Shown piece by piece: positions 1 through 21,237 of a DNA stretch of 21,759 nt. The notes beneath the pieces were generated by a model. It ran no database searches and was not told the DNA's origin. It was given only the letters and a program-made list of their open reading frames with translations. The position numbers were made by a program, and so were the translations under genes. The stretch's first letter is position 1; every line of letters begins with the position of its first letter. This DNA is from a virus: the IMG/VR virus record IMGVR_UViG_3300025438_001059, positions 1-21,759 of that record, one strand, 5' to 3'.

Positions 1-681
1 GATACCGTTTCCAGGGTCTGGAATACCTTTTAAGTCATTTAATTTTATAGAATAAATGTCAGCATTTTTTGCCCAACCGAAGGTTTTTCCGGCAACAGTA
101 GCTGCTACATGCGTACCATGTCCGTCGTAGTCAGTATAAAAGTTTGACGGCATAGTCCCTGAGACGCCGCTAACCGCGTACCAATCAATTTCTTTAACCC
201 TGCTTATACCCTGCGAATTTTGAAACTCAGGGTGATCTGCCTGAATTCCACTATCAACAATAATAACATCTACACCTGTACCATCAAGAACATAATTATA
301 AGTTCCACCTGGATCTGAGGTAGAGGTACCAAAAACATTAGAAGTATTTATATGTCTTAAAAGTCCCCAGTTTTGTTTGTCTCCTGTGCTTACAGTATCT
401 TTACTAAAAGTTCCATTTTGAAGCGCAAGTTTTACTGGTTTTACTGAGTCTACCGAAAAAACATCTAAAACACGAGGGTCTTTTTTTAGTTCTTCTGCTT
501 CTTGATCAGTCAAGTAGTACGAGGTATTAATTGGATTACTATTTCTAGGATTAGCAATTTCTACTTTTCTTTCAGGTACTTCTTTAGTTGAAGCTCCTTC
601 TTCGATAAGATCATCCCAAAGAGAGTCTGTTGTTTCTGCATCAACTGTGGTAATCATATACTCACGATTTTTATTTGACAT
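1..681 (-). CDS. Subtilisin-family (S8) serine protease, N-terminal part
   Basis: The reading frame opens at ATG 681-679 and runs off the left edge after 227 codons, so the C-terminus is missing. Residues about 5-75 look like an I9-type inhibitory propeptide, ending near PRVLDVFSVD. The catalytic domain follows. The aspartate motif VIIVDSGI places the catalytic Asp at residue 143, and DGHGTHVA places the catalytic His at residue 188. The oxyanion Asn and nucleophilic Ser would lie outside the window. No signal peptide is visible, which suggests action inside the infected cell or on the virion rather than Sec-dependent secretion. The Shine-Dalgarno AGGAT overlaps the stop codon of the 481-residue fibre gene 8 bases upstream, so the two are probably co-translated. 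A role in maturing fibre proteins, or in degrading host surface protein, is inferred from the neighbours. The family assignment is firm; whether the protease is active cannot be judged here. Confidence 0.93.
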   Translation of the reverse strand, partial: MSNKNREYMITTVDAETTDSLWDDLIEEGASTKEVPERKVEIANPRNSNPINTSYYLTDQEAEELKKDPRVLDVFSVDSVKPVKLALQNGTFSKDTVSTGDKQNWGLLRHINTSNVFGTSTSDPGGTYNYVLDGTGVDVIIVDSGIQADHPEFQNSQGISRVKEIDWYAVSGVSGTMPSNFYTDYDGHGTHVAATVAGKTFGWAKNADIYSIKLNDLKGIPDPGNGI

Positions 682-686
682 AGACT

Positions 687-692
687 ATCCTA
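687..692 (-). promoter_or_regulatory. Ribosome binding site overlapping upstream stop (protease gene)
   Basis: On the minus strand TAGGAT combines the TAG stop of the 481-residue fibre gene with an AGGA Shine-Dalgarno five to six bases before the protease ATG. This fixes the protease start at 681 and suggests translational coupling. Confidence 0.6.
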
Positions 693-1076
693 GGATATGG
701 AACTTAAAGATTTTATAGACAAAATTCCCACCATACTTGCATGTACTTGACAAATATATCTCCAAGAAGACGCGCTTGTAATAGGAACTTGCCAGTAGAC
801 AATTCCACTTGTCTGCCCTTGAGCGCCGGAATTTAGAGTAACAGTTCTGTTGTCTGCTACATGGATAAGTCCTGTAGTAATATTAGCAAACCCTCCACCA
901 GAATTTTCTTGGATTAGAAAAGGATGCGACGCAGAAACGTTTGTTAAATCAAAAGCAATAGTTGCCCCTCCAAGCGCATAAACAGTTGGGTTGTTGCCGG
1001 AGTAGTGACTATTAAATGTATAAGCAGAAGAGCTAGCATTAGCAACATCTAAAATTGCAATAGCGTTATAAAGAAC
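690..1076 (-). other. Cupredoxin-like domain with complete copper ligand set
   Basis: Residues 354-481 of the 481-residue fibre. His404 in SHPF and Cys462, His465, Met468 in YICQVHASM match the His, Cys, His, Met order of plastocyanin and amicyanin type-1 copper sites. The short C-x2-H-x2-M loop is the amicyanin length. The fold and the metal are inferred from motif order only. Confidence 0.6.
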
Positions 1077-2135
1077 TCCTGTGTTTGTGTCTATTGGCTG
1101 CCACGCTAGACCTGTAAAGTAGTATGCCTTACCTTCATCTGTATTGAATACAATAGACCCAGCGCTTGAGACTAACGTAGAGAGTTCTGCGTTAGTCTTT
1201 CCTACTAATTTAACAGGAGCATTATTAATAATTTCATCAACAGGATCTATAGTAATTGTTGTTGGGGAACTAATAGTGTAAGTACCCACTAAAGAACTTG
1301 GTGCAGACACGTTTGCTGTTTGAATCTCCGTAACAGATAAGACTTGACTTGTTGCATTATAAGTAATTCCAGAGTTTGTTTTTCCACCAATAGTTCCTGT
1401 TGCATCTTCGTAAAGACCTACAAAAGTAGTAGCATCGGTAGTAGTAATTACATCAACACTTCCACCAGACCCTGCAGGACCAGTGGGCCCAGTAGGACCA
1501 ACAGGACCTCCGGGATCACCGGCTGCACCGGCTGCACCGGTTGGACCTGTTACTTGGGATGCCGCTCCGGTAGGTCCAGTTGGACCAGTAGGACCTGTAG
1601 CTCCTGAGCCACCTGAATCTGTTCCCACCGTCTCCCAGTCGCCTGAAGTTTTGACTTCTAGTTTTTGAGTTTCAGTATTGAATCGTACATACCCTTCTTC
1701 AGCACTTAAACGTCTTTCAGCAAGAGTTCCTTTATCAAGATAAATTGTATTATCTAAACCGCGAATAAACTTATTAGTAAATGTTTGTGGAAGGCTTTGC
1801 GGTAGCACACTATCTTCTTGAGGTAAACCATTACATGAGAAGGAGGTTGTACCTGCACTTGATCGAACATACAATGTATCACCAGCATTTACGCCAAATC
1901 TAAACGTCTCGAAGGACTGCCCAAGACCAACATTTAGGTTAAAACATATGTATGCGTATTGAATATCTAGAGTTGCATTTGATGGTACTACCCATATAGA
2001 TACCTTTGTCAGTGGTGTAGAAGTTACTGCTTTATTTGCAACCGTGACAGAGATAAGATGCGCAGCTGAAAACGATACAATAGGAGCGGGGAAGTTTGCT
2101 TCCGGATTCACTACGCCTAGTCTTTGAATTGACAT
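690..2135 (-). CDS. Collagen-like tail-fibre protein with C-terminal cupredoxin-like domain
   Basis: This 481-residue protein has at least four parts. Residues 1-105 are a beta-rich module (AHLISVTVANK, GQSFETFRFGVNAGD) of a kind I recall from tail proteins of aquatic phages. Residues 125-172 and 310-348 are two short sandwich-like modules ending in W-x-x-V/I (DWETVG, AWQPID). A short collagen-like Gly-x-y stretch lies at 177-223. The C-terminal domain, about 354-475, has cupredoxin features: SHPFLI with His404, then YICQVHASMVG with Cys462, His465 and Met468. The spacing C-x2-H-x2-M-x-G is that of amicyanin, so all four type-1 copper ligands are available. Copper binding is inferred, not shown. 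The start has a strong GGAG Shine-Dalgarno overlapping the stop of the 1935-residue gene. It was probably made as a distal fibre or tip protein. Confidence 0.85.
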   Translation of the reverse strand: MSIQRLGVVNPEANFPAPIVSFSAAHLISVTVANKAVTSTPLTKVSIWVVPSNATLDIQYAYICFNLNVGLGQSFETFRFGVNAGDTLYVRSSAGTTSFSCNGLPQEDSVLPQSLPQTFTNKFIRGLDNTIYLDKGTLAERRLSAEEGYVRFNTETQKLEVKTSGDWETVGTDSGGSGATGPTGPTGPTGAASQVTGPTGAAGAAGDPGGPVGPTGPTGPAGSGGSVDVITTTDATTFVGLYEDATGTIGGKTNSGITYNATSQVLSVTEIQTANVSAPSSLVGTYTISSPTTITIDPVDEIINNAPVKLVGKTNAELSTLVSSAGSIVFNTDEGKAYYFTGLAWQPIDTNTGVLYNAIAILDVANASSSAYTFNSHYSGNNPTVYALGGATIAFDLTNVSASHPFLIQENSGGGFANITTGLIHVADNRTVTLNSGAQGQTSGIVYWQVPITSASSWRYICQVHASMVGILSIKSLSSIS

Positions 2136-2140
2136 AGTGG

Positions 2141-2147
2141 CTCCTTA
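2141..2147 (-). promoter_or_regulatory. Ribosome binding site overlapping upstream stop (481-residue fibre gene)
   Basis: The minus strand reads TAAGGAG: the TAA ends the 1935-residue gene and GGAG serves the ATG at 2135, with a five-base spacer. It is one of the strongest Shine-Dalgarno matches in the window and decides this start. Confidence 0.75.
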
Positions 2148-5100
2148 CGCCTGAGCTTCAGACCACGAAAGTTTCGCTGATGTTAGTGTATCTGCACCTG
2201 TCAATCGTGATACAGCAATTGTAATAATGTCCGGTCCATCGGGGAATACCGAGTCACCACCAAGAATTGAGTTTGATAGTTCAAACAATGTACTAACATC
2301 TACTGAGGTAGTTGCCTCTGCATTGTTTGTTCCTCCCTCGGCCTTAAAGTTGTAGACCTGAACTCCACCAGACACCGTATCAGCAGCCGTGTGCTCAACG
2401 ATTTGAGTCAAGGATGGTGCATCTACACCTGTAAAGTTTAGGTTATTGAGACGAGGATTGAGAAGCAACTTAACATCCACAAGTTGAGTACTAGAAATAC
2501 CAATTTCTTTCAGCCTAAGTTGCATTCGGTTAATAATGTCTCTGTCCCCAAGTTTACCTGTCAAACCTGATGACACGGATGGGCTCAGTCTTAGGGATAT
2601 AAGAGGTTGATAGTTTGCACCAGATGTATTATTAATAGATCCGTCGGGATACAATACATATGTATACTGCGTATTCCCTTGAGTTGTAAAGTTCAACACT
2701 TCGGAAATAGCTGCGGAAGGAACTACTGTAGAAGTTACAGTCTGAGACCCGTCGACGGGGAAAGTAAATGTCGTAGTATTTGTGACAGTTACAGGGCCTA
2801 CATACTGAGTCGGCAAGTTTGTAATTGCAACTCCGTTGTTGAGAATACCGTAAACACCTACGTTATTACTTACCGGAATTCCGTGTGGATTAGCTGTAAC
2901 AACCGTAACTGTCGATCCAGACCTAGAGAATGTTGCCCCAGATGTAATAACAGCAGTAAGTGGTGTGAGATGGATCAAGTTTGGTGAGTTAACAAATACT
3001 TTGTATTTAGCACTATTTGTCAAGTTAGCTAGTGTTTGATTACCGATAACTTGAGTAGCAGGATGCTGAGCATTACTTCCTGGAAGACCGTTAGCCGCTA
3101 TGGACTGGAACTGAACAATCTCTCCAGTTCGGAACCCATGCGTCTGAACTGTAAATAAATCAGTTGTAATGTTAATTCCAGTGGAAGCAAAAGACTTAGC
3201 AGTAGTTCCTAACACATTCAATGTTTGACTGGACTCGGTAAACAGGTAAGCATTGTCATCATCAAACCTGCCGTCCATCATTACCGAAGTACCCCAGTGG
3301 AATAGAAATGGGATATATGTTGGGTTATCGTAAGTAACTACTTCATATCGTGCAGGCAAGTTACCTGAGCGGAAGTAGGACTCGTAGAGACTGTTATTAT
3401 GGACAAACTCATGAACATACTGAACTTGTCCGTCACCTGTCTTAAACCCGAAGCGAATTTTACCAGCGCCGTACCACGAGTAGTCAATGTAGACCATTTG
3501 AATTCTTGATAGGTCTAAGTTATACCCGGTCGGTCCTGAACCATCGCAGGGATCAATAGAAAAGTCTTCTTGCGGTACTCGAGTATCCACAGTCTTTGTG
3601 ACAATAATTCCAGATTTAGCAGGTGTAAATGAATGAACAGTAGTTGTACCTAAACTAGATAAATCTACGTTGACTACTGAATTAGGAGATGACAGTAACT
3701 TAAAACTATTATTATCAACAATATCTATGTAGTATGTTCGTCCATTAACAAGACCGCCAATAGGCTCACCGTCAATAGAGTTATACGTTACTGGAAGCAC
3801 ATTAGAGAATCCATGACCATTTATTGCAAAGTTATTTGTAGAAATATTTACAACAGTAGTGGGGTTGAATTCTTTTTCTGTTCCTGAAGAACCTTTATAC
3901 TCTGGACGAACTGACATTCTAGTGTCAGAATCAATCTGTGTTACGCGATAAGACTGACCTCGCATAACAATATAGTCTCCAACATCTATTTGAGCCGTAT
4001 ATTTTGTTCCCGTTCCAAAGATAAGTTCTGCTCCTTGTTGTGCTGCAGAGGAACCAGCCATTTGCTGCGTTGAAGAACGACGAACTGCGTAGAGTTTTTG
4101 ACCATCAAACTCGTAAAACATTCCGTTTTGAAAGTCAAACATTCCAGATCGAAGAGCACCATTCTGCCAGTTACGAACAAAGAACTGAGGAAATCCGTAT
4201 GCTCTTGCTTCGCTGCCCTCTGGGACAGGAGAAGAAGCGGTAATTCTGAACTGAGTTAGGTTGACAGTAGTTACTTGGAATTCACCGTTATACAACTGGC
4301 TAGGGATATTGAATGAGTCTACTGCCTGACTTACAACAACGAATAGTCCAGAAACTAGTCCGTGAGGTCGCCGTGTTGTACACGTTATTGTGGTTGCACT
4401 AAATCTTTCCATTGACTCTAGATCAATAGATGGCTTAAAGTTAATACCAGCTGAAGTCTGCAACCCCTTACCTGACTGGTAACGGAAGTACTTACGAGTC
4501 TGACGAATAATTTGTCCAAGAGATGTTTTTGCTCCAACCGACATCTCAACGCCACCATCAAATGGACGGTGAAGTGAGTACCCTTCTGGGCGAACATAGA
4601 CAAATGTTGGGTATGAATATTGAACAGCGCTGTATGCACTGGAGTACGGACGATCAACAGTGAGCTGTGTATCGGATCCAACAGCAGTAATCCTACGAAT
4701 AATTGGTGAAACAGGTGATGTTCTCTTTAGTGAGAAATTTGTTCCTGTACCTTGAGTTGATAGGTCAATTGCTCCAGTATTTGCAGTAGCATCTGCTGCA
4801 GAATTATGAAGTGTTACAGCTGTAGCGGATATCTCTCTAATAAAGTAGTAATATCCATCTACTAATGGGCTAGGAGACACTCCGCCATCAGCAGAAAATA
4901 CTACTGTATCGGCGGTGCTGTAGTTGTGATTAGATCCAAACGTGATTCTATTGGTTGTTGTATTTACATCCCCTGCCCCAAACACTCTAGTAACTGTATT
5001 GTTCAGCGGGAAAAGTCGGAAAGTGTCACCTACTTTTAGAATCTTTGAGAATGACGTTCCTACACCGTCTACTAAAACCGATCCTGCAACAATACTTACA

Positions 5101-7952
5101 GACCCGCCACCAGTAATATTTCCGTTAATTTGATTAGTAACAAATGAGTGTGCAACACCAGTACCATAGTCACTTACAGTAATAGTAATACCAGCTGCTG
5201 CATTTTCTGAACTGGTAGCGAGACGAATGTAATCTTTATTAATTGCCACTACATAATAAACGGTCTGATCTGTAAGACCTGTTACAACAGTTGCTGCATC
5301 TCCCTTTGAGTATGTCACAGCGGTCTCGGTTAGCAACCCGTGAGAAGGAATAAAGAACGCATCAATATTTAGATCTATAGATGATCTTGGGTTAAATACC
5401 TTTGTAAGATTTGGTACAGATCCTCTAGCCTCTACTGTAAATGTGTCGGGTGTAGGCACAGAAGTGATAGCGTAGATACCATCCGGAGTCTTGCTTAACG
5501 ATTGCAGACTATGTCGTCCAACACCAGATGGAGATGATGCAAGGTCAACCGATATACCTGCATCGGCATTCTCTGGAGTAGTGGCAAGTTTAATATTGTC
5601 ACCGTTAATAAAAATTACATAGTATGGAGTTGCAGTAGTCAACCCTGCAACTACTTGCTGACCTCTAGAGTCATACTGTACGAGCTCTCCCTGCAAAAAT
5701 CCATGTTGAGGTAGCGTAAGTATGTTATTAGTAAAATCAAGAGAAGTAACAATCAAAGATTGAGTTCCAGTACCAGCGCCAGTAATATTTACTACGTTTG
5801 TTAAAGCACTATTAGTGGCTAGTTTTACAATTGAGTTATCTACCTTGATAATGTAATAAGTAGCATCGTTTGTAAGACCTGGAATAGTGCTCCCGCCACC
5901 ATTTGAGTATCTAATTGCTTGACCAGACACTAACCCGTGGTTCGGGATATATAAATTGTCTTCGGAGGCATTGACAGTTAAGAAAATAAAACTGTGGGCA
6001 GTTCCTGTACCAGCAGCAGCAAAGTTAATTGGTAGTGGTGCATCTAGACTTGTCTTAAGTCTAATCTGATTAGCATTAAGAACCTGAGCTACATAATAAG
6101 TAGCTTGATCTTGAAGAGGATTAATAGGCGTCCCGCCACCAGCGTCATACCTGAGTGGCTGATCGACAAGGAACCCGTGATTGTTAATTGTAAGGGTCTC
6201 AGTTGATGTATTTACAATTACTCTACTGATTACTGAAGAAGTTGTAGTTTCTCTTCCTGATGGAACTGTAAGGTTTAACGTATTAAACGAAGGACCAGGA
6301 TTAGAGCTTAGACGGTATGAATAGTTGTTTAGTCTATTTACATAGTAAATTGTTCCGTTTACTAGTCCAGTCGGCGGGGTATTGTTAAATGTAAGTGTCG
6401 CAGCTTCTCCACTTATAAGATTGTGTGGAGCAGCACTATGTATGAAATTATTTTGAATATCAAAATTAATTGGTACAAAGGCGTGGTATGAATTTCCAGC
6501 AGATTCAATAGCAATCTTATTTGTTCCAGCCTCTGCATCAGGTGCGGTTGGGTAGACCTCGTTTCCACTAGTAAATTTGGAAACAATTGACATAACCACA
6601 GAGCCTTCACCTGTGTTAAAGGAGTTTAAATTTGTAATTGATACACCATTAAAAAATGGTTCTCCATCAAAAGTTCCGGTAGATGTTGCTACATTTGTTG
6701 CAAATACCGATATAAATGATCCTCCACCGCCACCGCTCTGTTGCGCAATACTCGTACGAGCACCGCCGCCACCAGAATATCCACCGGCTCCTCCAGCTTG
6801 ACCTGTGTTGGTTCCGTCTGAAGACCCACCACCACCAAATCCACCATTTCCGCCGACTCTAGCGCCATTATCTTCAGATGTAAGTCCGTCTAAGAAAGAT
6901 CCTCCACCTTTTTCACCGAATGTAGAATTTTGACCGCGAGAATTAAAACCTCCACCAGCAGCAGAAGGTCCTCCTGTTGCTCGTCCGCCAAAGCCAGGAG
7001 TAGTTGCGTTAGCTAATGATTCATTTGTCGACGTCCCTGCAAGTTGAGCTAACTCGGCGTCTCTACCACTGCCAGCGTTTGGTTCAGCCGTTCCGCCACC
7101 TGCAATAAATAATGGATCATTTCCAGTTTTACGAACGACAAATGTTCCGCCACCGGAGCCACCATATGGTCCTGATGCAGGTGCCTCACCTACTTGACCT
7201 ACGGCAATGGTAATAATTTCACCCTTAGTAAGAGACACCCGACCTCTAACTACGGCACCCCTACCGATTCCTCCAGCTCCAGAACCGTTAAAACCTGATG
7301 CACCCCGCGCCTCAAACTGGTAGATACCTGAGATTGGTACTGTCCAGTCTTGATACCCATTAAAAGAACCTTCTTGTATAAATGTACCATGCCAAGGAGT
7401 GCTATATCCAACAGAAATTTGAGCACTACTGGGGCCTTGCCTTCCAGTTTGACCGCAAGTAGAGAACGTGTGAGTATTTCCAGATATTTCATAAAGGGCT
7501 TGTGTTCCAGAAAAAGTTGCTTCAACATTTTTTAAGAAGTAAGTATTACCGGTTGTCAGACCGGTAAGAGGGGTTCCGCTGGTGAGATACTTGACGGCTT
7601 GATTTGATGCAGTAGGACTATTTATGTTTAGGGTACTGTCGAATATTATTGGTAAATTTAGACTTGTCCCGCCGGCTGTAGCGCTAGTTAGTGAAATTAT
7701 TTCATCACTTAAGTCTCGAAACTGCAAAATAAACTTAGTAGCTATATCTGCATAGACAAGATCACCTTCGGTAATACCACCAATAGACCCAATACCTGAG
7801 GTATAAATGTAGCTAGCACCACTTACTATTGACGTAGGAATGTTGTCAGTACCTAAACTTGAAAAGTAGACATAATTATCAACGGTGTTGACGTTTACTC
7901 TTCTAAAGGTGTGAGTACCCGAGGCACCTGCCGCCGTGATGTCAATAGCCAT
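2145..7952 (-). CDS. Giant multidomain phage structural (tail or baseplate fibre) protein
   Basis: This 1935-residue protein is the largest in the window. Residues 1-190 are beta-rich, and the opening GASGTHTF looks like the end of one repeat described next. Residues about 195-455 form a glycine-rich domain with the WTVPISGIYQFEARGASG entry strand typical of phage Gly-rich domains. Residues 497-817, 853-939, 1362-1443 and 1588-1665 carry 75-90-residue repeats with the pattern N-H-G-F/L, (V/I)xY, GLTxxTYY(V/I), K/RLAT, GTGTHSF. Residues 1115-1570 include KYFRYQSGKG, FFVRNWQNGALRSGMFDFQNG, KTVDTRVPQ, IDYSWYGAGKIRFGF, SGNLPARYEV and HWGTSVMMDGRFDDD. I recall this block as conserved in structural proteins of T4-like cyanophages. 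The last 150 residues are a separate beta-rich tail. There is no transmembrane segment or enzymatic motif. A weak Shine-Dalgarno (AAGAG) precedes the ATG; the 33-base gap upstream suggests co-transcription with the 921-residue gene. Confidence 0.85.
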   Translation of the reverse strand: MAIDITAAGASGTHTFRRVNVNTVDNYVYFSSLGTDNIPTSIVSGASYIYTSGIGSIGGITEGDLVYADIATKFILQFRDLSDEIISLTSATAGGTSLNLPIIFDSTLNINSPTASNQAVKYLTSGTPLTGLTTGNTYFLKNVEATFSGTQALYEISGNTHTFSTCGQTGRQGPSSAQISVGYSTPWHGTFIQEGSFNGYQDWTVPISGIYQFEARGASGFNGSGAGGIGRGAVVRGRVSLTKGEIITIAVGQVGEAPASGPYGGSGGGTFVVRKTGNDPLFIAGGGTAEPNAGSGRDAELAQLAGTSTNESLANATTPGFGGRATGGPSAAGGGFNSRGQNSTFGEKGGGSFLDGLTSEDNGARVGGNGGFGGGGSSDGTNTGQAGGAGGYSGGGGARTSIAQQSGGGGGSFISVFATNVATSTGTFDGEPFFNGVSITNLNSFNTGEGSVVMSIVSKFTSGNEVYPTAPDAEAGTNKIAIESAGNSYHAFVPINFDIQNNFIHSAAPHNLISGEAATLTFNNTPPTGLVNGTIYYVNRLNNYSYRLSSNPGPSFNTLNLTVPSGRETTTSSVISRVIVNTSTETLTINNHGFLVDQPLRYDAGGGTPINPLQDQATYYVAQVLNANQIRLKTSLDAPLPINFAAAGTGTAHSFIFLTVNASEDNLYIPNHGLVSGQAIRYSNGGGSTIPGLTNDATYYIIKVDNSIVKLATNSALTNVVNITGAGTGTQSLIVTSLDFTNNILTLPQHGFLQGELVQYDSRGQQVVAGLTTATPYYVIFINGDNIKLATTPENADAGISVDLASSPSGVGRHSLQSLSKTPDGIYAITSVPTPDTFTVEARGSVPNLTKVFNPRSSIDLNIDAFFIPSHGLLTETAVTYSKGDAATVVTGLTDQTVYYVVAINKDYIRLATSSENAAAGITITVSDYGTGVAHSFVTNQINGNITGGGSVSIVAGSVLVDGVGTSFSKILKVGDTFRLFPLNNTVTRVFGAGDVNTTTNRITFGSNHNYSTADTVVFSADGGVSPSPLVDGYYYFIREISATAVTLHNSAADATANTGAIDLSTQGTGTNFSLKRTSPVSPIIRRITAVGSDTQLTVDRPYSSAYSAVQYSYPTFVYVRPEGYSLHRPFDGGVEMSVGAKTSLGQIIRQTRKYFRYQSGKGLQTSAGINFKPSIDLESMERFSATTITCTTRRPHGLVSGLFVVVSQAVDSFNIPSQLYNGEFQVTTVNLTQFRITASSPVPEGSEARAYGFPQFFVRNWQNGALRSGMFDFQNGMFYEFDGQKLYAVRRSSTQQMAGSSAAQQGAELIFGTGTKYTAQIDVGDYIVMRGQSYRVTQIDSDTRMSVRPEYKGSSGTEKEFNPTTVVNISTNNFAINGHGFSNVLPVTYNSIDGEPIGGLVNGRTYYIDIVDNNSFKLLSSPNSVVNVDLSSLGTTTVHSFTPAKSGIIVTKTVDTRVPQEDFSIDPCDGSGPTGYNLDLSRIQMVYIDYSWYGAGKIRFGFKTGDGQVQYVHEFVHNNSLYESYFRSGNLPARYEVVTYDNPTYIPFLFHWGTSVMMDGRFDDDNAYLFTESSQTLNVLGTTAKSFASTGINITTDLFTVQTHGFRTGEIVQFQSIAANGLPGSNAQHPATQVIGNQTLANLTNSAKYKVFVNSPNLIHLTPLTAVITSGATFSRSGSTVTVVTANPHGIPVSNNVGVYGILNNGVAITNLPTQYVGPVTVTNTTTFTFPVDGSQTVTSTVVPSAAISEVLNFTTQGNTQYTYVLYPDGSINNTSGANYQPLISLRLSPSVSSGLTGKLGDRDIINRMQLRLKEIGISSTQLVDVKLLLNPRLNNLNFTGVDAPSLTQIVEHTAADTVSGGVQVYNFKAEGGTNNAEATTSVDVSTLFELSNSILGGDSVFPDGPDIITIAVSRLTGADTLTSAKLSWSEAQA
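3243..4610 (-). other. T4-like structural block within the 1935-residue protein
   Basis: Residues 1115-1570. Aromatic-rich, non-repetitive and apparently the constrained core of the protein: KYFRYQSGKG near 1154, NWQNGALRSGMFDFQNG near 1261, IDYSWYGAGKIRFGF near 1489 and HWGTSVMMDGRFDDD near 1552. I recognise it from memory as common to T4-like cyanophage structural proteins. A 9-repeat-type insert (residues 1362-1443) splits it. Confidence 0.55.
5136..6464 (-). repeat. Tandem H-G-F/L beta repeats (protein level)
   Basis: Residues 497-939 of the 1935-residue protein contain five diverged copies of a 75-90-residue unit: a HNL, HGF, HGL, HGF or HGL turn, then a Y-containing strand, a GL(T/V)xxxxYY(V/I) segment, a K/RLxT/S strand and a GTG(T/V)(A/T)HSF-type end. 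More distant copies occur at residues 1362-1443 and 1588-1665. DNA identity between copies is low, so the duplication is old. Confidence 0.75.
6588..7370 (-). other. Glycine-rich (polyglycine-type) domain in 1935-residue protein
   Basis: Residues 195-455. It starts with a tryptophan strand (QDWTVPISGIYQFEARGASG), passes through interrupted Gly-Gly runs, includes FIAGGGT and GGFGGGGSSDG, and ends with GEGSVVMSIV, the closing strand expected for this family. It resembles the Gly-rich domains of phage adhesins whose glycine runs pack as polyglycine-II helices. Confidence 0.65.
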
Positions 7953-7985
7953 TAATTGCTCTTTTCTACTAAAATGTGGGTCATC

Positions 7986-10751
7986 TTACGGTTCTAACGG
8001 ATATAGGACACAAACTATTCCGTTTACTCCATTTCCAGTTCCACCGTTTCCTGCACTACCTCTTAGTGGATCAGTAGAGTTTCCTGGTACACCAGTAAAA
8101 CTTCCATTTACGATAGTTGTACCTAGACTAGAACCACCGCCACCGCCGTTAGCGGTTACACCGTCTGCATTTGGGTATCGTCCTCCGGTCCCCCCTCGAA
8201 GGCCACCACCGCCACCGCCACCCCCTTGAGCATCAAACGGAGGCTGAGTACCTGCGGTACCATTGCTATTAGAAGACGCCCCTGTAATACCTGGGTTGCT
8301 TCCTGCACCGCCTGCTCGTCCATTCTCACCACCACCGCCACCGCGACCGTCACCGCCACCACCTTCGGAACCGCCGCCTCCGCCACCACCACCGGAAGCT
8401 GCAAGAATTACACCACTTCGCAAGAAAAGACTGCCGCCGCCTCCGCCTCCACCGCTGCCGCCCGATCCCGTAGCGCCAGAGTTACCGCCTCTACCCCCAG
8501 CGGCACCATAGAATCCAGCTCCGCCTGCTCCACCGGCGCCATTAGTCAATTGCGCGTCGTTTCTAACTCCACCGCCACCAACGCTAACATTATAAGCGGC
8601 AACTTCAATTCCACTAATTGTTGCTTGAACGTAAGCGCCACCGCCGCCAACCGCTCCTCGCCCAAGGGAACCACCTTGAGCACCGCCAGCTCCCCAGAGT
8701 CTAACGTCAACTATATTAGAAATATTCCCTAAAGAAGTGACATTAAACGTGTTAGCCCCGGTTGAGGTGAAAGTGTGCATTCTAAAGTTACGACCACCAA
8801 CTACTATTGAGCTAATAGCCCCCCCTGTTGCTTGCATAGGAATTGGGTTTATGCTGGAGAATGGAATATCGTTTGGTCCCTCGTCTTGCGGGTAAGCAAT
8901 GTCAACTCGACCACCCGAATTTACAACTACTGCTATATTTTCTACGGCGGCTACTCTAGTACCTTGAGAAGTCACTCCGCCGAATGATCCTCCATCCACT
9001 GTAAATTTTAAACTTTGATCAAACGTGCCAGCGTCAGAAATTTGAAGGCTAAACGTCCCTGGTGTAGTAAACCTGTGAATCGTATATAGTCTTCCTAAAT
9101 ATGTAACAGTCTGCGTGACATTTCCGCCAAAGACCGTAATAAAAGATTCTGCAACAGGATTTAATTGATAGTTGTGTTGATCATAAGCTGTCACAACAAA
9201 GTAAAAAATTTTTTCATTGTCAGCTTTAAAATTTCCACTTTCTGGAAACTCGTACTCAAGCATGTCTTTAGCAGCATAGGATGAATTTCTAATGTGCACA
9301 ATATCTTTATCTGAAGACACACCAATTTTAGAAAAAGTCTGAGAGCCGCTTCCCCCCGTAGGAGTTATTACAGAAAGAGAGTCTGGAAACTCTTTTATTG
9401 TTATATTGTAAAGATCTGAAGCGGCATTCGGTTCGTAAGTGTCAATAAAATAAGTTCTGTTATTGACAAGACCAGATGCGGCTGCGCCTGTTGTTGTGTA
9501 CCTAATCATTGCCCCTGTGTAGTAGTCAAGACCTGCGTCTGGGCTAGTACTTACCAAAATAGTATCTGAATATCCTAAAACAGTAGAAAATCCATTAGTT
9601 ACCTGATCACTTGCAAATCCTTGATTTCCTCCATCAAAAACAATTGGATTCTGTCTTACAACTGTAAGACCGGTTTGAGTTAAAGGATTTACGTTGTTTC
9701 CTGCAAAAGTACGAGCCTGGTTTGCAATCTGAAATGTTCCAGACATGCTTGACTCAATATTAATAGCGTCCCCGTCAGGAACTTCACTTACCTGAAAAGT
9801 GGATTGAGCCGACCCAAGGCCATCTGTAGTTTTAAGAAAAACTACACCTCTAGGGTTAGTTGCAAAGTATCCTGTAGAAGCTAAAACATTGTAATAAAGA
9901 GGAGAACCAAGTGGCAACCCATTAAATGTTTCGGTTGAGTGAGAGACTGTAAGTGTGTCATTAGTTGTACTCACTGTAGAAATTGTACTAACAACACCTC
10001 CCGTTGTTGCGCTATTAGACCAGTCAATGTTTGTACTTGAAAGGGTGTTAGACCCATCAAAAGTCTGAGCGGTTGCGGAGTTGGAAGAGTCAAAAGACTT
10101 TGCTGCTGTGTTAGTTGCTTCAAACTCTTGAGAAATTGTAGAGTTTAGATTGAGGAAGTAAAACGGAGTGTTTACACCGAACCCATGAGTAGACTCTGTT
10201 TTAACTGTAAGAACAGAGGTTGCAGCACCGTCAGTAATAATTCCTTCGGCATTAGCTACTCGAACCTGAGATCCTTGAAAGAACTCTCCTGTAATAATCG
10301 AAGTGTATAGATCTTCAATGGAATTGTCACCAACTTGATTGTCTCTACATAGATAGGTGAAGGTTGTTGAGTTTGGAATTGAGTTAATGATATAAGCACC
10401 ATCAGCGGTGACAGATTTAGTTCCTGTAACACTAATAGGAATTCCAACTGCAAGACCGTGATCTAGTCCTGTTGTAACCGTAATCTCTCTAGTTCCGTCG
10501 TTTGTAATAACAGATTGAATGCCATCAATTGTGGTGTCTCCACCTTTTGAGAAGAATGACGGAGTATTATTAATAAGTTCAACAGTTTCCCACTTAGTAG
10601 GCTGAAGACCATACTCAAAGTCGGTATCAATAAGGTTTTCAGGTTGACTAACTCGGAGTTTGGTTACCGGATCAATAAACTCCTTGGGAAATGAGATCTC
10701 CCCACCACCACCCCCAGTGCTTCCTCCACCACCACCTAAAAATCCTGGCAT
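7986..10751 (-). CDS. Phage tail or baseplate protein ending in polyglycine adhesin-like domain
   Basis: This 921-residue protein starts MPGFLGGGGGSTGGGGG, a flexible glycine leader. IDTDFEYGLQPTKWE at residues 41-55 is a motif I recall from structural proteins of T4-like aquatic phages. The middle (about 60-680) is beta-rich, with HGLAVGIPISVTG-type and GLVNNRTYFID segments related to the repeats in the neighbouring 1935-residue protein. Residues 687-911 form an extreme glycine-rich domain with uninterrupted runs of eight glycines (GSGGSGGGGGGGSLF; AASGGGGGGGGSEGGGG), a FYGAAGGRGG stretch and the closing strand NGIVCVLYP. This architecture fits a receptor-binding tip built from polyglycine-II helices. 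An AAAGGTG Shine-Dalgarno precedes the ATG. An 85-base gap separates it from the 216-residue gene upstream. The adhesin role is inferred. Confidence 0.82.
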   Translation of the reverse strand: MPGFLGGGGGSTGGGGGEISFPKEFIDPVTKLRVSQPENLIDTDFEYGLQPTKWETVELINNTPSFFSKGGDTTIDGIQSVITNDGTREITVTTGLDHGLAVGIPISVTGTKSVTADGAYIINSIPNSTTFTYLCRDNQVGDNSIEDLYTSIITGEFFQGSQVRVANAEGIITDGAATSVLTVKTESTHGFGVNTPFYFLNLNSTISQEFEATNTAAKSFDSSNSATAQTFDGSNTLSSTNIDWSNSATTGGVVSTISTVSTTNDTLTVSHSTETFNGLPLGSPLYYNVLASTGYFATNPRGVVFLKTTDGLGSAQSTFQVSEVPDGDAINIESSMSGTFQIANQARTFAGNNVNPLTQTGLTVVRQNPIVFDGGNQGFASDQVTNGFSTVLGYSDTILVSTSPDAGLDYYTGAMIRYTTTGAAASGLVNNRTYFIDTYEPNAASDLYNITIKEFPDSLSVITPTGGSGSQTFSKIGVSSDKDIVHIRNSSYAAKDMLEYEFPESGNFKADNEKIFYFVVTAYDQHNYQLNPVAESFITVFGGNVTQTVTYLGRLYTIHRFTTPGTFSLQISDAGTFDQSLKFTVDGGSFGGVTSQGTRVAAVENIAVVVNSGGRVDIAYPQDEGPNDIPFSSINPIPMQATGGAISSIVVGGRNFRMHTFTSTGANTFNVTSLGNISNIVDVRLWGAGGAQGGSLGRGAVGGGGAYVQATISGIEVAAYNVSVGGGGVRNDAQLTNGAGGAGGAGFYGAAGGRGGNSGATGSGGSGGGGGGGSLFLRSGVILAASGGGGGGGGSEGGGGDGRGGGGGENGRAGGAGSNPGITGASSNSNGTAGTQPPFDAQGGGGGGGGLRGGTGGRYPNADGVTANGGGGGSSLGTTIVNGSFTGVPGNSTDPLRGSAGNGGTGNGVNGIVCVLYPLEP
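8019..8693 (-). other. C-terminal polyglycine domain of 921-residue protein
   Basis: Residues 687-911. Roughly half the residues are glycine, in several parallel runs separated by short polar turns, opened by VRLWGAGGAQGG and closed by GNGVNGIVCVL. The plus strand shows the mirror image as proline-coding ccaccgcc tracts, which creates spurious proline-rich frames there. Confidence 0.7.
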
Positions 10752-15008: not shown

Positions 15009-15017
15009 CCTTCCTTA
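15009..15017 (-). promoter_or_regulatory. Ribosome binding site overlapping upstream stop (227-residue gene)
   Basis: The minus strand reads TAAGGAAGG; the TAA ends the 548-residue gene and AGGAAGG precedes the ATG at 15000 by eight bases. Confidence 0.65.
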
Positions 15018-16661
15018 ATTATCCGCTGCTATGTACGTTCCGGTTAAATACATAAAAGAACTCGTATCTAATGTCGCTGGAGCAGCTCCGGTAAGAGGGG
15101 TGAGAAGTCCATTAGCTCCTAAGAAAAACAAAGGAACAATAGCAGATCCCGCATTTAAAACTGCTCTAATATCATATTGAGCTACGCCAGTCGTATTATC
15201 AAGAACTCCAGTAAATGAGTCCCTAATAATTTCTTGAGGAAGCACCGGAATCGTAAGTGTGTACTGTCCAGTTCCTACGTTAGAAACGTTAGAAAAATTA
15301 ACAAAAATTCTAAAATGTACAAGGTTGCCAAATCTTAAAAACTCACCAACTGTTGGAGTTCCAATATATGTGAGTCCTGGTCCAGACCATACTGGAGTGT
15401 ATGAATTTTCAAGAGGAGTTCCAGCAGGTCCTGCAATACCCGTTGGGCCTGTAGGTCCTTGTTTATCAATAATATCAATAACGCCTGCAATGTTTGTATC
15501 AGTAACATCTTGATATAAAATTTGGGTTGGAGCATTTAGGGGAACGTCATACACAATAGTAGGATCTGTGCTTGAAATATTTCTACCTAATGTTGTGCTG
15601 TTATTTATTGTGCCCGGCACAGTGGATGTGCTGCCTGATGTAAGGCGTAGTGCTACAGAGTTTGTGATTTGAACTCCTGCTACATCAAAATACAATCTTT
15701 CACCTCGAACAGCTACAAGGTTTGGGTTACTTCCCACGACTCCTTCAGCAGCAAATTCGGTCTCATTTGAGGAAACTTTATAAGTTACACCGCCTTTAGA
15801 CCCTGTTGGTCCTGTTGCTCCTATTGGACCAGCAACCTGAGACGCTGCACCAGTTGGTCCTGTAGGTCCTACCGTTCCTGCGGGTCCAGGAGTCGTAGAT
15901 GGTTCCGTAGAAACGGGCCCTGTTGATCCTGTAGGACCAGTAACGCCAGCTGGACCAGGAACAGTACTAACTCCACCTGTTGGGCCAGTCGGACCCGTGG
16001 CACCAATTAATGCTCCAGCTTCAATCCAACCATTTTCTTGAGTATAAATATAGATAGTGTCTTCATCGTAAATGACCCAAAAGTCTCCTACTGTACCGGC
16101 AGTAGCACCAGCTCCTACAGCAAAGTCAAGATATGTTTGATAATATCCCTGCGCCTCGGAACCAAATCCTTGTGCACCAGTTGGGCCTGTAGGTCCTACT
16201 ACACCTTGTGAACCTGTTGGTCCTGTTACTACGGAATCTGCACCGTCCGAACCATTATCACCAGCGGCTCCCGTAGGGCCAGTAGGTCCTACTACACCTT
16301 GTGAACCTGTTGGTCCTGTTGCTCCTCCAAATTCTGAAGTACCTATTTCAACCCAGAAAGAGTCATAGTAAACGTAAACCGCGCCACTTTCGGTGTCAAA
16401 CCATGCGTCTCCAGGAGTGGGGGAGGTGGGTGGACTTCCAGCCGAGGGTACAAACTCTCCTTCAGGTCCTTGAACTCCCGTAGGACCTGTGGGACCTGTA
16501 GGTCCTAGATTTCCTTGAGAACCTGTAGGGCCTGTGGGACCGGTAGGTCCCAGTACAGTTGAACGGACAACATTCCATGTTGTTCCATTCCAAATCCAAG
16601 TGCGACCTCCCTCGGAGTATTGATCTCCAATAGTAGGTGTGCTGGGGAAATTAATAGCCAC
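15015..16661 (-). CDS. Collagen-like tail-fibre protein (FPS-module paralogue, GTG start)
   Basis: This 548-residue protein starts at GTG 16661-16659, chosen because the conserved [14 protein letters not shown]...[13 protein letters not shown] module begins there and an AGGTGAT Shine-Dalgarno lies six bases upstream. Collagen-like stretches at 38-66, 113-165, 219-292 and 401-415 alternate with small modules: [22 protein letters not shown] at 84-106, and [25 protein letters not shown] at 191-215. Residues 294-398 resemble a cupredoxin-like domain ([30 protein letters not shown]) but the copper ligands are absent. The C-terminal domain 419-548 opens [12 protein letters not shown] and ends [13 protein letters not shown], a tip of the SYTPxW type. 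Two 39-base direct repeats lie in its collagen part. A structural fibre is firm; its receptor is unknown. Confidence 0.87.
15468..15782 (-). other. Ligand-less cupredoxin-like domain in 548-residue fibre
   Basis: Residues 294-398. It shares [13 protein letters not shown] and VPxNAPTxIxYQ with the C-terminal domain of the 1521-residue fibre. The position of Cys-x2-His-x2-Met is occupied by [11 protein letters not shown]. The fold is inferred from that similarity and from the copper-competent relative in the 481-residue fibre. Confidence 0.5.
16189..16320. repeat. Pair of 39-base direct repeats in collagen-coding DNA
   Basis: Positions 16189-16227 and 16282-16320 are identical over 39 bases, 93 bases (31 codons) apart and in frame. 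They encode a repeated [13 protein letters not shown] peptide. Confidence 0.85.
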
Positions 16662-16667
16662 TGTTTA

Positions 16668-16674
16668 TCACCTA
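16668..16674 (-). promoter_or_regulatory. Ribosome binding site that supports the GTG start
   Basis: The minus strand reads TAGGTGA: TAG ends the 1521-residue gene and AGGTGA lies six bases before GTG 16661. It decides the start of the 548-residue gene. Confidence 0.65.
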
Positions 16675-19600
16675 ATCGTTGTAGTACGGGATCTTGGCAA
16701 TGTTTCCATTGACGGTTGTCACAATATATCCAGCTACCTGACCGGGAATAGCTCCATTTGATCCCGTAGTTGCTGTAGTGGCATTAAGATCAGTAATTAC
16801 TGGATCTCCAATAAGAATCTGACCAACTACTGCAGAAGATGTGGTTGACTGATACACAATTGATGTTGGAGCATTAAAGGGAACTGTATAGACAATCACT
16901 GTATTGGTACTTCCAGAAAATCTTCCATCTACCGTACTGTTATTTATTGTACCTGGAACTTCAGAAAGATTTTCACTAGACAACCGTAGTGCAAATGGCT
17001 GATCAACAGATACCGTACTTGCATTAAAGAGATATGTATTTCCTCTTGCAAGATGCAGTACCGGAAATGTTGTGTCTGCTACTCCTGTAAATCCATAATT
17101 AAACCCAGTCTGAACAACATTATAAATAGGAGCACTAGCAGGGCCAGTAGCACCGGTCGGTCCAAGTCCACCTGTTGGGCCGGTAATTGCAGACGGAGGA
17201 CCAGTTGGGCCTGTTGCACCTGTGGGTCCTAGAGGACCTGATGGCCCGATAGGTCCCGTTGGTCCTGGGGGGCCTGTGAGTCCAACAAAACCACGAGGGC
17301 CAGTTGGTCCTGTAGGTCCAATATCAGCGGAGGCAGCTTCAACCCAGAAGGAGTCATAGTAAACATAAACACTTCCATTTGTTGAGTTAAACCATGCGTC
17401 TCCAACTACAGGATTTAATGGAGGTGTAGATGCTTCTGTCGAAAAAGTTCCATCTGGTCCTGTAGGGCCTGTAGGTCCCTGAGAACCCGTAGGTCCTGTC
17501 GGTCCCGTTACCTGTGAAGCAGCTCCAGTTGGTCCGGTTTGACCTATAGGTCCTGTAAATCCTGTAGGGCCTGTCTCTCCTCGATAGCCTGTTGGTCCTG
17601 TAGGGCCAAGGACGGTACTTACTGCTCCAGTTGGCCCAGTCTGCCCTATAGGACCTGTAGGTCCGATAGGTGCTGCACCAACCTCAACCCAGAAAGAGTC
17701 GTAGTAAACATAAACTTTCCCGTTGGCAGTGTTAAACCATGCGTCACCAATTTGTGGACTTGATGGTGGTGTTGCTTCCGTAGGTGTAAATCCTCCAGTG
17801 GGACCTGTAGGTCCTACATCTCCAGTAGGACCTGTTGCACCTGTAGGACCTGTAGATCCTGTAGGACCTTGAATGTTTCCTACATTGTTCCATTGGCTGT
17901 TCAGTTCATCCCATACATACAAATCTCCGCCGACGAGATAACCGTCTCCAGAGTTTCCTGACGCAGGGAGTTCAGAAGAGCTAGCAAAACTACCAAGAAT
18001 TGTAACGCCAGTTCCCTGTGATCCGGTTGCACCTGTTGGGCCCTGCGAACCCGTAGGTCCTGTTACAGAACTATCTGCACCTGTGGGCCCTGCAACACCT
18101 GTCTCACCTGTAGGTCCTGTTGGGCCTAAGTCACCTTGCGAACCTGTGGGCCCTGCAACACCTGTCTCACCTGTAGGTCCTGTTGGGCCTAAGTCACCTG
18201 TTAACCCTTTACCTGCAAGAATTTGCCATTCTGAAGGAGAGGAGTCTGGAAGATTATTTAAGGTTGTGCTTATAGCGATATACGAAGTTCCATTGTATTG
18301 AACAATGTCATCTACAACATAGGAAGTACTGCTATTCCACGGGCCTGTCCATGTAGCTCCGACATTTCCTTGCTCACCTGTTGGACCAGTAGGTCCCATA
18401 ACTCCTTGCGCTCCAGTAGGCCCAGCGGAGCCTGTTGCACCTGTGGCTCCGGTAGCACCAATAACGCCTTGAATACCTTGATCGCCTTGCGAACCTGTTG
18501 GTCCTGTGGCTCCGGTGGGGCCTGTATTACCTAAAACACCTTGCGCACCGGTTGGACCTGTTACTTGAGAATTAGCACCCTGCAACCCAGTTGGACCAGT
18601 AGGACCAGAAAGATTTCCAACGCTAATCCATGCGCTTGTAGCTACATCCCAAACATAAAGAATATTTACAACTAAATATGCGTCCCCAAGATTTCCTGTT
18701 GGGTGGCCACCTTGAAGTTCTGAAAGATTTGCGTAGGATCCGAGGATGGTTGTTGCTTCACCTTGTGGGCCAGTAGGACCGGTAGGTCCTGTAGGTCCTG
18801 GGACTGTCGATGGTTGAGTAGATATAGGTCCGGTAACACCTTGTGGTCCTGTAGGTCCTAGTGGACCAGTCGGTCCTTGAGGTCCTGTAACACCTTGAAT
18901 ACCTTGTGGTCCGATATCACCTGTACGAGCAAAGGTAATGATTACATCTTCATTATTGTCAAACGAGGATGCAAGACCAGACACCCACGAAACAGGAACT
19001 TTAAAATATCCAGCTGCCTCTGTAATACTGCCAGTAATAGAGAAAAGTGCAAAGTCAGCAGTATTAGTTTTATTGCTAACTCGAAAGTGTCCTTTTAGTG
19101 GACTTGTTGAGTCATCAATTGTTTGAAGGAACGCTTGAATATCAATCGAGTTATCGTCTTCATCATCAATAAAAAGGAAATTAGCAAGCGTTACGTTTGC
19201 ATTATTAAATCTAAGTTTTCCTGTGCCAGGATCTGTATCACTGACAGAAGTATTAAATGTATAGTCAAAGCTTGCTCCGCCAAACACACCTGCGGGACCT
19301 TGTGTACCTGTTGCTCCAGTAGGTCCCTGTGAGCCTGTAGGTCCTGCAACACCCGTTGGACCAGTAGGACCGGCAACTGTAGATGTCGCACCTGTTGTGC
19401 CTGTAGGTCCCTGAGAACCCGTGGGACCTGTAGGTCCTGTTACCTGTGAAGCAGCTCCAGTTGGTCCTTGCGAACCTGTAGGTCCTTGAATTCCATCAGG
19501 ACCGCTAAGACCTGTCGGACCTGTAACACCCTGACCTCCAGCTACTCCGGTAGGCCCTGTAGAACCAGTTGCTCCATTAGCTCCAGGTTGACCAACAGCA

Positions 19601-21237
19601 CCAGTAGGTCCAGTCCCGCCTGCAACACCTGTAGGTCCTGCTACACCTGCGGCACCTGTTGCACCAGCAGACCCAGGTTGGCCAACAGCACCTGTTGATC
19701 CTGTAGGACCCGTTACTGTCGAGGCTGCACCTGTTGATCCTGTAGGACCAGTAACACCCTGAGTACCCGCTGGACCCGTTACTGTCGAGGCTGCACCTGT
19801 TGGACCTTGCAACCCTGTTGCACCTGTTGCACCTATAGAACCGTTAGTACCCGCTGGGCCCTGGGATCCGGTAGGCCCTTGAGCCCCTGTTGGGCCAGCA
19901 ACACCTTGTGCACCAGCAGAACCGGTAGAACCCGTTGGTCCGGTTACATTAGAGTCAGCACCCTGAGAGCCAGTAGGACCTGTTGTACCAATAGATCCGG
20001 TTGCACCTGTTGGGCCTTGCGGTCCCATGTCTCCTGTGCGAGCAAAAGTAATAACGACATCTTCAGCAGAAGAAAAGTTAGCTGCCAGTCCGCTAACGTA
20101 TGAAACAGGAACTTTGAAGTATCCTGTTGTTTCAGTTATAGTTCCAGTAATAGCAAAGAATGCAAAATCATTTGCATCCTGTTTGTTAGCAACACGAAGG
20201 TGTCCTTTTATAGGAGAAGTGCTGTCATCAATTGTTCGCAAGAAAGCTTGAATGTCTATTGATCCATCGGCTTCGTCATCAATAAACATAAATGTTGCGA
20301 CAGGTAGACTTGCTTGGTTAAATTTTAAAGTTCCTGTTCCTGGATCAGAATCGTCTGTCTGAGTAGAGAACGTGTAGTCAAATGTTGCTCCGCCAAAAGA
20401 TCCTGCTGCACCTGTTGCTCCAGTTGGTCCTTGAGTCCCTACTGCTCCGGTAGGTCCTGCAATACCCGTTGGGCCTGTAGGTCCGGGAGTAGTACTGACT
20501 GCTCCAGTAGGGCCAGTGGTCCCTTCAGGCCCTTGAGCTCCCGTAGAGCCTAGATTGCCTTGAATTCCCTGAACACCTTGTGGTCCTGTTACACCCTGTG
20601 GCCCTGTTGGACCTTGCAAACCTGTTGGACCTGTTAATCCTTGTGCTCCCATTGAGCCTGTGGGCCCAGTAAAGGGACCAACATTTTCCCAAGAAGATGT
20701 CTCTGTACTCCAGATATATAGGTTTAAGCCAACAACATACGCATCACCAGCAGCCCCTGTTGGGTGTGCAGTAGTTAGTGCACTCTCTGTTGCGTACTCT
20801 CCTAAAAGTTGAAAAGAATACCCGGCAGGTCCCGTTGGTCCTTGAGGCCCTAATGGTCCTCGCGCAATGCCTGAACCGGCTGGCGTTACTGTAGATGGAT
20901 CTGCAGTGTCGAGACGAGTAATGTCAACATCGCTCTCGTCACCTATAGGTAGATAGAATCTAAACTCGTAGGGCCTAGCACCTCTAATGCGAATTCTGGC
21001 GGTGTAGTACCAACCACGAGGACTTAAATCCCGATCGTCCGTGCAAGGAAGCTCTACCGAAAATTCACCGTTAGCATTGAGTGTTGCTTGAACGGGACCA
21101 GAAAGAATTACCGCGTCATCAAGATCTTCAATACGACTAGACGCATTAAAAGTGATTGTCCCCGAGGCAGCTAGACCGTTCACTTTTGTGAATTGGCCAA
21201 CAACTACTCTCGTGGATACGTCAACAGGGTAACTCAT
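16672..21237 (-). CDS. Giant mosaic collagen-like tail-fibre protein
   Basis: This 1521-residue protein begins with a globular N-terminal domain (1-112: [55 protein letters not shown]). That layout recalls attachment domains of minor tail proteins in actinobacterial phages. The rest alternates collagen-like segments (about 127-139, 191-280, 402-650, 774-827, 878-960, 1012-1075, 1124-1148, 1191-1262, 1307-1368) with small modules. These include three LGxYA...GDAYLV...LYVWD...W modules (144-188, 831-877, 1080-1123), two near-identical 121-residue beta domains (281-401, 652-772), a carbohydrate-binding-like module (960-1010) and two GDAWFN...[10 protein letters not shown] modules (1150-1190, 1264-1303). 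Residues 1371-1477 form a cupredoxin-like domain lacking ligands, before a 44-residue tail. A GGAG Shine-Dalgarno precedes the ATG. It is probably the longest stalk of the adsorption apparatus and leads the fibre transcript. Confidence 0.88.
16807..17127 (-). other. Ligand-less cupredoxin-like domain in 1521-residue fibre
   Basis: Residues 1371-1477: [20 protein letters not shown], then [17 protein letters not shown] and AVVGQILI. Alignment by eye to the 481-residue fibre puts Gln in place of the first His (DQPF versus SHPF) and [10 protein letters not shown] over CQVHASMVG, so no copper site remains. Confidence 0.5.
17280..17314. repeat. 35-base segment identical to 13648-13682
   Basis: Partner copy of the segment shared with the 552-residue fibre gene; it encodes [10 protein letters not shown] in the collagen-like part near residue 1310. 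Confidence 0.85.
18079..18199. repeat. Perfect 63-base-period tandem duplication
   Basis: Positions 18079-18136 and 18142-18199 are identical over 58 bases, with period 63 bases (21 codons). The unit encodes [20 protein letters not shown] plus one residue, in frame. Perfect identity at synonymous positions marks a very recent duplication or active slippage. Confidence 0.92.
18208..18360 (-). other. Carbohydrate-binding-like module in 1521-residue fibre
   Basis: Residues 960-1010: [20 protein letters not shown] followed by GTSYIAIS and [10 protein letters not shown]. The W...Y..DD.V.Y.G..Y.A.....P....W layout resembles the small chitin-binding CBM5/12 type. It is a single copy inserted between collagen segments. 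Confidence 0.5.
18922..19284 (-). repeat. Duplicated 121-residue domain, copy 2
   Basis: Residues 652-772 ([10 protein letters not shown] ... [13 protein letters not shown]). It aligns over its full length, without an obvious gap, to residues 281-401; [28 protein letters not shown] and ITFARTGD are shared. Confidence 0.9.
19706..19802. repeat. Pair of 31-base direct repeats in collagen-coding DNA
   Basis: Positions 19706-19736 and 19772-19802 are identical over 31 bases, 66 bases (22 codons) apart and in frame. They encode the GAASTVTG collagen interruption and its flanks. Confidence 0.85.
20035..20397 (-). repeat. Duplicated 121-residue domain, copy 1
   Basis: Residues 281-401 ([10 protein letters not shown] ... 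[13 protein letters not shown]). The partner lies 371 residues downstream. Acidic residues cluster at [13 protein letters not shown] in this copy and [13 protein letters not shown] in the other, so calcium binding is conceivable. No family is recognised. Confidence 0.9.

Follow-up and report, generated by a model that had tools for sequence, protein, structure and literature searches.

A predicted cupredoxin-fold domain with a type-1 copper ligand set at the C-terminus of a collagen-stalked phage tail fibre protein

The window, i.e., the whole stretch of DNA that was analysed, is a virus record of 21,759 bases. Near its start it encodes a fibre protein with a collagen-like stalk and a C-terminal domain that carries the residues of a type-1 copper site, and two further fibre genes toward the other end encode paralogous domains. 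The features are the following (positions in the window, residues in the 481-aa protein):

1..681, minus strand: peptidase gene of the subtilisin-like S8 type, truncated at the edge of the window (Pfam S8, 6.8e-11)
690..2135, minus strand: fibre gene, 481 aa, ATG start
residues 1-110: N-terminal head of the fibre protein
residues about 125-171: gp9/gp10-like neck region
residues about 175-225, 1461..1613, minus strand: collagen-like Gly-Pro-Thr repeat stalk (Pfam Collagen below cut-off; GPTGPTG read directly)
residues 267-476: PHROG_677-like part
residues 354-481, 690..1076, minus strand: C-terminal domain, predicted cupredoxin fold (stop codon at 690-692)
1005-1007, minus strand: codon of His377, an extra His, in FNSHYSGNNP
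924-926, minus strand: codon of His404, first (N-terminal) copper-ligand position, in SHPF, directly before a strand
861-863, minus strand: codon of His425, an extra His, in GLIHVA
750-752, minus strand: codon of Cys462, thiolate ligand position, last residue of domain strand 104-109
741-743, minus strand: codon of His465, second His ligand position, in the C-x2-H-x2-M loop
732-734, minus strand: codon of Met468, axial ligand position, Gln in some relatives
15468..15791, minus strand: second paralogue of the domain, within the 548-aa fibre protein (15015-16661), with N, D, D and I in place of the ligands
16672-21237, minus strand: 1521-aa fibre protein
16810..17133, minus strand: paralogous cupredoxin-fold domain (predicted) at the C-terminal end of the 1521-aa fibre; ligand positions Q, S, S, V

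An earlier note on this DNA had proposed a complete amicyanin-type set of copper ligands in the domain at 690..1076, and a letter-by-letter check found His404 in SHPF and Cys462, His465 and Met468 in YICQVHASMVG at the positions that it gave. The spacing C-x2-H-x2-M is the loop length of amicyanin (YDYHCTPHPFMRGKVVV, YDYHCTPHPFM). The term amicyanin-type holds for this loop spacing but not for the domain as a whole, as the best whole-domain sequence match is rusticyanin and the first ligand stands in His-Pro-Phe and not in the His-Asn of amicyanin. The domain forms the C-terminus of a 481-aa collagen-stalked fibre and is not a free periplasmic electron carrier.

AlphaFold2 (AF2), run with the 43 relatives of alignment A1 described below, predicted a beta-sandwich for the domain (690-1076) with a mean pLDDT of 92.7 and a pTM of 0.87. 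Strand 53-58 starts shortly after His51 (domain numbering), Cys109 ends strand 104-109, and His112 and Met115 sit in the loop before strand 116-122. The same strand-loop arrangement of His, Cys, His and Met is established for amicyanin, plastocyanin and azurin. In the predicted structure the His, Cys, His and axial Met are found in the order and in the strand and loop positions that are canonical for type-1 sites, with Cys closing the penultimate strand and the second His and Met in the loop after it. A Foldseek search against the PDB returned 34 matches at E<=0.001, 33 of which are laccases, rusticyanins or amicyanins, while the lone non-cupredoxin is a sodium-channel beta4 domain; the TM-scores are moderate with about 0.4-0.50 by query and up to 0.61 by target (purple cupredoxin 5fc9). 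Both AF2 and Foldseek gave the Greek-key beta-sandwich that had been expected, and not the non-sandwich fold that had been named beforehand as refuting the idea; the PDB matches were almost all cupredoxins and included amicyanin. The fold is also matched by a protein of the giant virus Fadolivirus that is annotated as blue type 1 copper protein (BFVD A0A7D3QVK4); other viruses thus have cupredoxins, too.

On the level of sequence, the window domain alone gave only chance matches against Pfam and no copper family, and the adhesin and TRIM matches obtained by phmmer with the single sequence against the PDB (E>0.1) were judged to be chance as well. A profile of close relatives matched almost only cupredoxins, each of them weakly. 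The profile of the diverse alignment A3 matched rusticyanin in the PDB at E 1.1e-4, followed by amicyanin, copper nitrite reductase (NirK) and plastocyanin, with the four ligands in register with those of rusticyanin (GHSF vs GHPF; YYVCQIPGHAATGMFGKIVVK vs YYQCtvHaaMvGtIvik). A homologue from cyanophage ACG-2014b matched copper nitrite reductase by itself at E 0.083. Sub-threshold support comes from Pfam Copper-bind, weakly matched by 23/43 and 13/34 relatives in the two alignments, and from the NCBIfam amicyanin or halocyanin models, matched by some relatives. The assignment of residues 354-481 as a cupredoxin domain is supported by the predicted fold together with the profile sequence match.

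Three groups of known copper proteins can be compared with the domain. Rusticyanin (PDB 1a8z, 1rcy, 1gy1), the best whole-domain PDB profile match (E 1.1e-4) and also a Foldseek match, aligns in His (GHSF/GHPF), Cys, His and Met, and neither protein has an Asn after the first His; rusticyanin, however, is a free periplasmic electron carrier with a longer C-x4-H-x4-M loop, whereas the window domain is a C-terminal fibre head. Amicyanin (PDB 1aac family; NCBIfam TIGR02657) has the exact C-x2-H-x2-M spacing and appears among both profile and Foldseek matches, but it is a free periplasmic partner of methylamine dehydrogenase and has His-Asn where the fibre domain has His-Pro-Phe. The type-1 domains of multicopper oxidases and laccases are the top Foldseek matches, and their type-1 His is followed by Pro-Phe; laccases have HPFHL- at this position and relatives of the window domain have GHPFHLQ at the first ligand. 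In contrast to laccases, the fibre domain has a shorter C-x2-H loop and no type-2/3 His-x-His motifs were seen in it, which argues that there is no oxidase site. Small blue copper proteins usually have a second-shell Asn after the first His, and with the laccase-like His-Pro-Phe at this place the potential and the colour of the putative site may differ from those of amicyanin.

Conservation was analyzed in two alignments. In A1, which contains 43 relatives from viral contigs, Cys and Met never vary and each His is present in 42/43, the single exception being without both His. A3 is more diverse, with 34 relatives whose identity to the query goes down to 25%, and its only invariant columns are P30, H51, P52, Y107, C109, H112 and M115 (domain numbering), four of the seven being ligands; as the ligand-free paralogues and L024 were left out, A3 measures constraint among ligated members. 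The first-ligand His is followed by Pro in all 34 members, the His-Asn of amicyanin being found in none. Among 1140 ORFs with a length of 200 aa or more, 342 contain a C..H..M pattern, compared with a mean of 0.55 and a maximum of 2 when each protein is shuffled, and since the loci were fetched for this domain family the count shows constraint and not an unbiased frequency. Two extra His residues, His377 and His425, are each present in 41/43 members of A1; His377 is not conserved in A3, and both are specific to the subfamily and not conserved in the cyanophage gp9-like heads. They are possibly a second metal site or an inter-chain site.

An iterated HMM family built from all family loci and clustered at 60% identity gave 44 clusters, of which 28 have H-C-H-M and 2 have H-C-H-Q, while nearly all others have neither the Cys nor the His-His pair. 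No representative of the 44 clusters retains Cys while missing a His; at finer clustering the L024 group is an exception, in which both His were lost together (SLPF, CPSFTPM). Both His ligands are lost with Cys and Met kept in L024, L025, L027 and L032, which are large T4-like contigs, and gp23 is present in the L024 and L032 records. The axial Gln variants (NHPLMFS...YYWCHYHTGQG) occur in fibre proteins encoded beside gp9, and Gln is the axial ligand of stellacyanin. Cyanophage-type fibre proteins of L207, L035, L117, L128 and relatives contain tandem cupredoxin-like domains, one with axial Gln (C-x2-H-x2-Q) and the others ligand-free. A tree of 93 members shows six or more changes of the ligand state, among them several separate losses. 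Two 'H---' rows of the tree are alignment artefacts and were rejected as partial sets because the Cys-His-Met part lies further along those proteins. L076_+1_4736 looks like a false HMM hit and was rejected as family member. An independent-pairs test of co-loss yielded 4 pairs, all or most in the same direction and never opposite, too few for significance, so that the co-loss of the ligands stands as a pattern and not as a p-value. In these sequences the ligands, where retained, are retained as a set, which is what a bound metal would impose.

The paralogues in the window belong to the ligand-free group. For the domain of the 1521-aa fibre AF2 gave a pLDDT of 94.1 and Foldseek returned mostly cupredoxins (best E 6.9e-3), so a ligand-free paralogue is still predicted to be cupredoxin-folded and the fold appears to have no need of the ligands. 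The L172 counterpart of the 1521-aa protein, which is 49% identical, has H, C, H and M (SASHPFALRL / IVYQCAVHSNMIG). Within the collagen repeats of the 1521-aa fibre, a CBM_5_12-like module of the chitin-binding type lies at residues 967-1004 (E 4.7e-5, below the Pfam cut-off).

The earlier note had supposed that similar motifs exist in other aquatic phage fibres, and hundreds of phages from oceans and lakes indeed carry the same domain on their tail proteins. A tblastn search at E<0.01 found it in 262 phage records; the names of 260 contain Synechococcus, Prochlorococcus or cyanophage, while one is named 'Marine' and the last is an actinophage, and most among the matches listed are annotated 'baseplate wedge tail fiber connector'. 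Scans of contigs gave 85, 109 and 357 related places, in overlapping lists of which the best 80 each were listed, and the domain also occurs in an actinophage from a lake and in some 100 environmental contigs. One contig scan identified no cellular donor, as all it gave was a partial match of 26 residues in a Bacteroidales MAG.

In the cyanophage family Kyanoviridae, gp9-like proteins carry the domain as C-terminal head, and the four ligands are complete in 12/12 cyanophage gp9-like heads and in the four other cyanophage fibre heads that were read. The N-terminus of the ACG-2014b gp9-like protein matches T4 gp10 (E 1.7e-8) and gp9 (9e-5), and by these matches the protein is composed of a wedge-binding base and a predicted cupredoxin head. 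PHROG_677 ('baseplate wedge tail fiber protein connector', T4-like cyanophages) contains the same domain in the same C-terminal head position and matches residues 267-476 of the window protein at 1.3e-20 and the domain alone at 1.4e-23. As judged from these profile matches, the window domain is homologous to the head of the cyanophage gp9-like baseplate-wedge/fibre-connector proteins. The cyanophage proteins have a T4 gp9/gp10 N-terminus, whereas the window protein has another N-terminal head, which is common to the actinophage DSL-LC01; its residues 1-170 had no PDB match and a gp9/gp10 N-terminus was not detectable in them. S-SZBM1_206 (498 aa) has the full domain with complete ligand set at its C-terminus, and this protein was detected by mass spectrometry in CsCl-purified virions with 9 peptides and 24.9% coverage (PMC9146016), which places the domain on a protein of real particles.

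The reading that we favour, with moderate confidence, is that the domain is the metal-loaded, most likely copper-loaded, cupredoxin apex of a collagen-stalked fibre, docking on the host or on a neighbouring fibre protein. Concerning metal binding, metal identity, loading time and docking role, we infer that each chain would hold a single soft metal ion in the ligand site, with copper as the likeliest. The bacterial cytoplasm contains almost no free copper, so the metal would probably be picked up late, after lysis, from the water. It would pin the His404 loop to the Cys-His-Met loop, the pinned loops would give a rigid, exposed apex, and with this apex the fibre would dock on the surface of the host or on an adjacent fibre protein. 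The predicted fold, the profile match, the four ligands among seven invariant columns, the all-or-none loss of ligands, the axial exchange of Met to Gln as known from stellacyanin and the presence of the homologue S-SZBM1_206 in virions support reading the residues as a metal site. Against a metal-loaded head stand the Pro where a second-shell Asn is usual, the single window sequence without match to a Pfam copper family and the persistence of ligand-free versions in the same virus, which indicates that the metal is dispensable for the fold; a further point against it is that the fibre protein is assembled in the copper-poor cytoplasm.

The main rival to copper is zinc from the cytoplasm. According to this explanation, which we regard as unlikely, zinc or another cytoplasmic metal fills the site and copper has no role, the metal being purely structural, like the iron in T4 gp37 and P2-type spikes. 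Assembly of the fibres in the cytoplasm agrees with it, and cupredoxins made in the cytoplasm of E. coli often carry Zn(II). Phage fibre tips that hold a metal also speak for it, as in T4 gp37, which binds iron on HxH motifs (cited in PMC11705849). However, the Met/Gln fourth ligand and the trigonal Cys-His-His set are of the copper type, and the ligand pattern offers no argument for Zn. For the alterophage R22Y an iron-binding fibre tip (HxH) was predicted only (PMC11705849). The window domain, with its putative metal site, shares with T4 gp37 and R22Y the character of a metal-type fibre tip, but these hold octahedral iron between chains on HxH, with unrelated fold and ligands.

Alternatively, the site might act as a redox switch, in which reduction of Cu(II), at the surface of the host or by its exudates, changes the head and helps to trigger the baseplate, a role that we hold to be quite improbable. 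One-electron redox is what type-1 sites are made for, the N-terminus of the cyanophage homologue is of the T4 gp9/gp10 type, which puts that protein at the wedge, and the position of gp9 in T4 links the movement of the fibres to the baseplate. This explanation nevertheless lacks a redox partner, the window protein has no detectable gp9/gp10 N-terminus, and the idea is weakened because type-1 sites barely change shape between oxidation states and are therefore poor conformational switches. Equally improbable is an inherited scaffold, i.e., a captured cellular cupredoxin whose ligands are kept for packing and hydrogen bonds without metal: the paralogues that keep the fold without ligands do suggest a generic use of the beta-sandwich by the phage, but constraint is strongest at the ligand positions, even at identities as low as 25%, the ligands disappear jointly, and the axial change from Met to Gln is a functional substitution, a pattern not expected from packing alone.

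Returning to the proposed copper-loaded apex, the domain presents, by sequence and predicted structure, a known fold and site in a new setting, the head of a phage fibre. In the open-access literature nothing was found on a cupredoxin with a bacteriophage virion or tail fibre, nor on blue copper with a phage structural protein or virion. One article that mentions copper, nirK and the gp9 connector (PMC8115048) was rejected as precedent, as it concerns a separate metabolic nirK gene. The known metal-bearing phage fibres carry iron on HxH motifs, and the 'Ferrojan horse' idea on phages and trace metals is relevant here (PMC11705849). Going further, it is conceivable, and we put it forward only tentatively, that the tail machinery of marine and lake tailed phages contains several working type-1 (blue) copper centres in each virion and that these serve in infection, for host recognition or redox-sensitive triggering. 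If true, virions would count as copper proteins and as a reservoir of copper in organically bound form in surface waters, and viruses would join the copper-ligand pool of the ocean. In Kyanoviridae, a type-1 copper site on a baseplate/fibre protein would introduce a metal and a ligand chemistry that are both new for virions, and it would give a testable reason for effects of copper availability or redox state on the adsorption of cyanophages. The ligand-full and ligand-free paralogues within one phage constitute a natural control.

The nearest known phage is the Actinomycetia phage DSL-LC01 from Dishui Lake, with 53-56% identity for neighbouring proteins. DSL-LC01 encodes WhiB near its fibre genes, contigs with counterparts of the 548-aa protein carry WhiB as well, and WhiB is an indicator of actinophages (PMC10202952). 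As psbA was not found in 11 relative contigs, a cyanobacterial host cannot be assumed; WhiB and the relationship to DSL-LC01 indicate an actinobacterial host instead. The window phage is related to phages of actinobacteria rather than of cyanobacteria and probably infects actinobacteria. A fragment of an MRE11-type exonuclease (21350-21757, minus strand) is closest to actinobacteriophages. The fibre-region protein WJZ48554 of DSL-LC01 has its own full-ligand cupredoxin domain (GHPFWIK...YYICQFHSLMQGTI), so the domain occurs in cyanophages as well as in actinophages and is not restricted in its use to phages of photosynthetic hosts.

The S8 peptidase gene adjoining the fibre gene has its nearest relatives among cyanophage subtilisins. 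PHROG_9158, which joins an S8 peptidase and the cupredoxin domain in a single protein, matches the peptidase at 2.5e-29 and the domain at 1.6e-8, and this suggests a recurrent fusion of the two; PHROG_27200 is alike in that its model also matches both. On the other side of the fibre gene lies a glycine-rich virion protein (2145-7952, minus strand; in L269 at 430-8991). Its counterpart in DSL-LC01 is annotated 'ALK tyrosine kinase receptor', a label that is probably a misannotation via the ALK_LTK glycine-rich Pfam domain.
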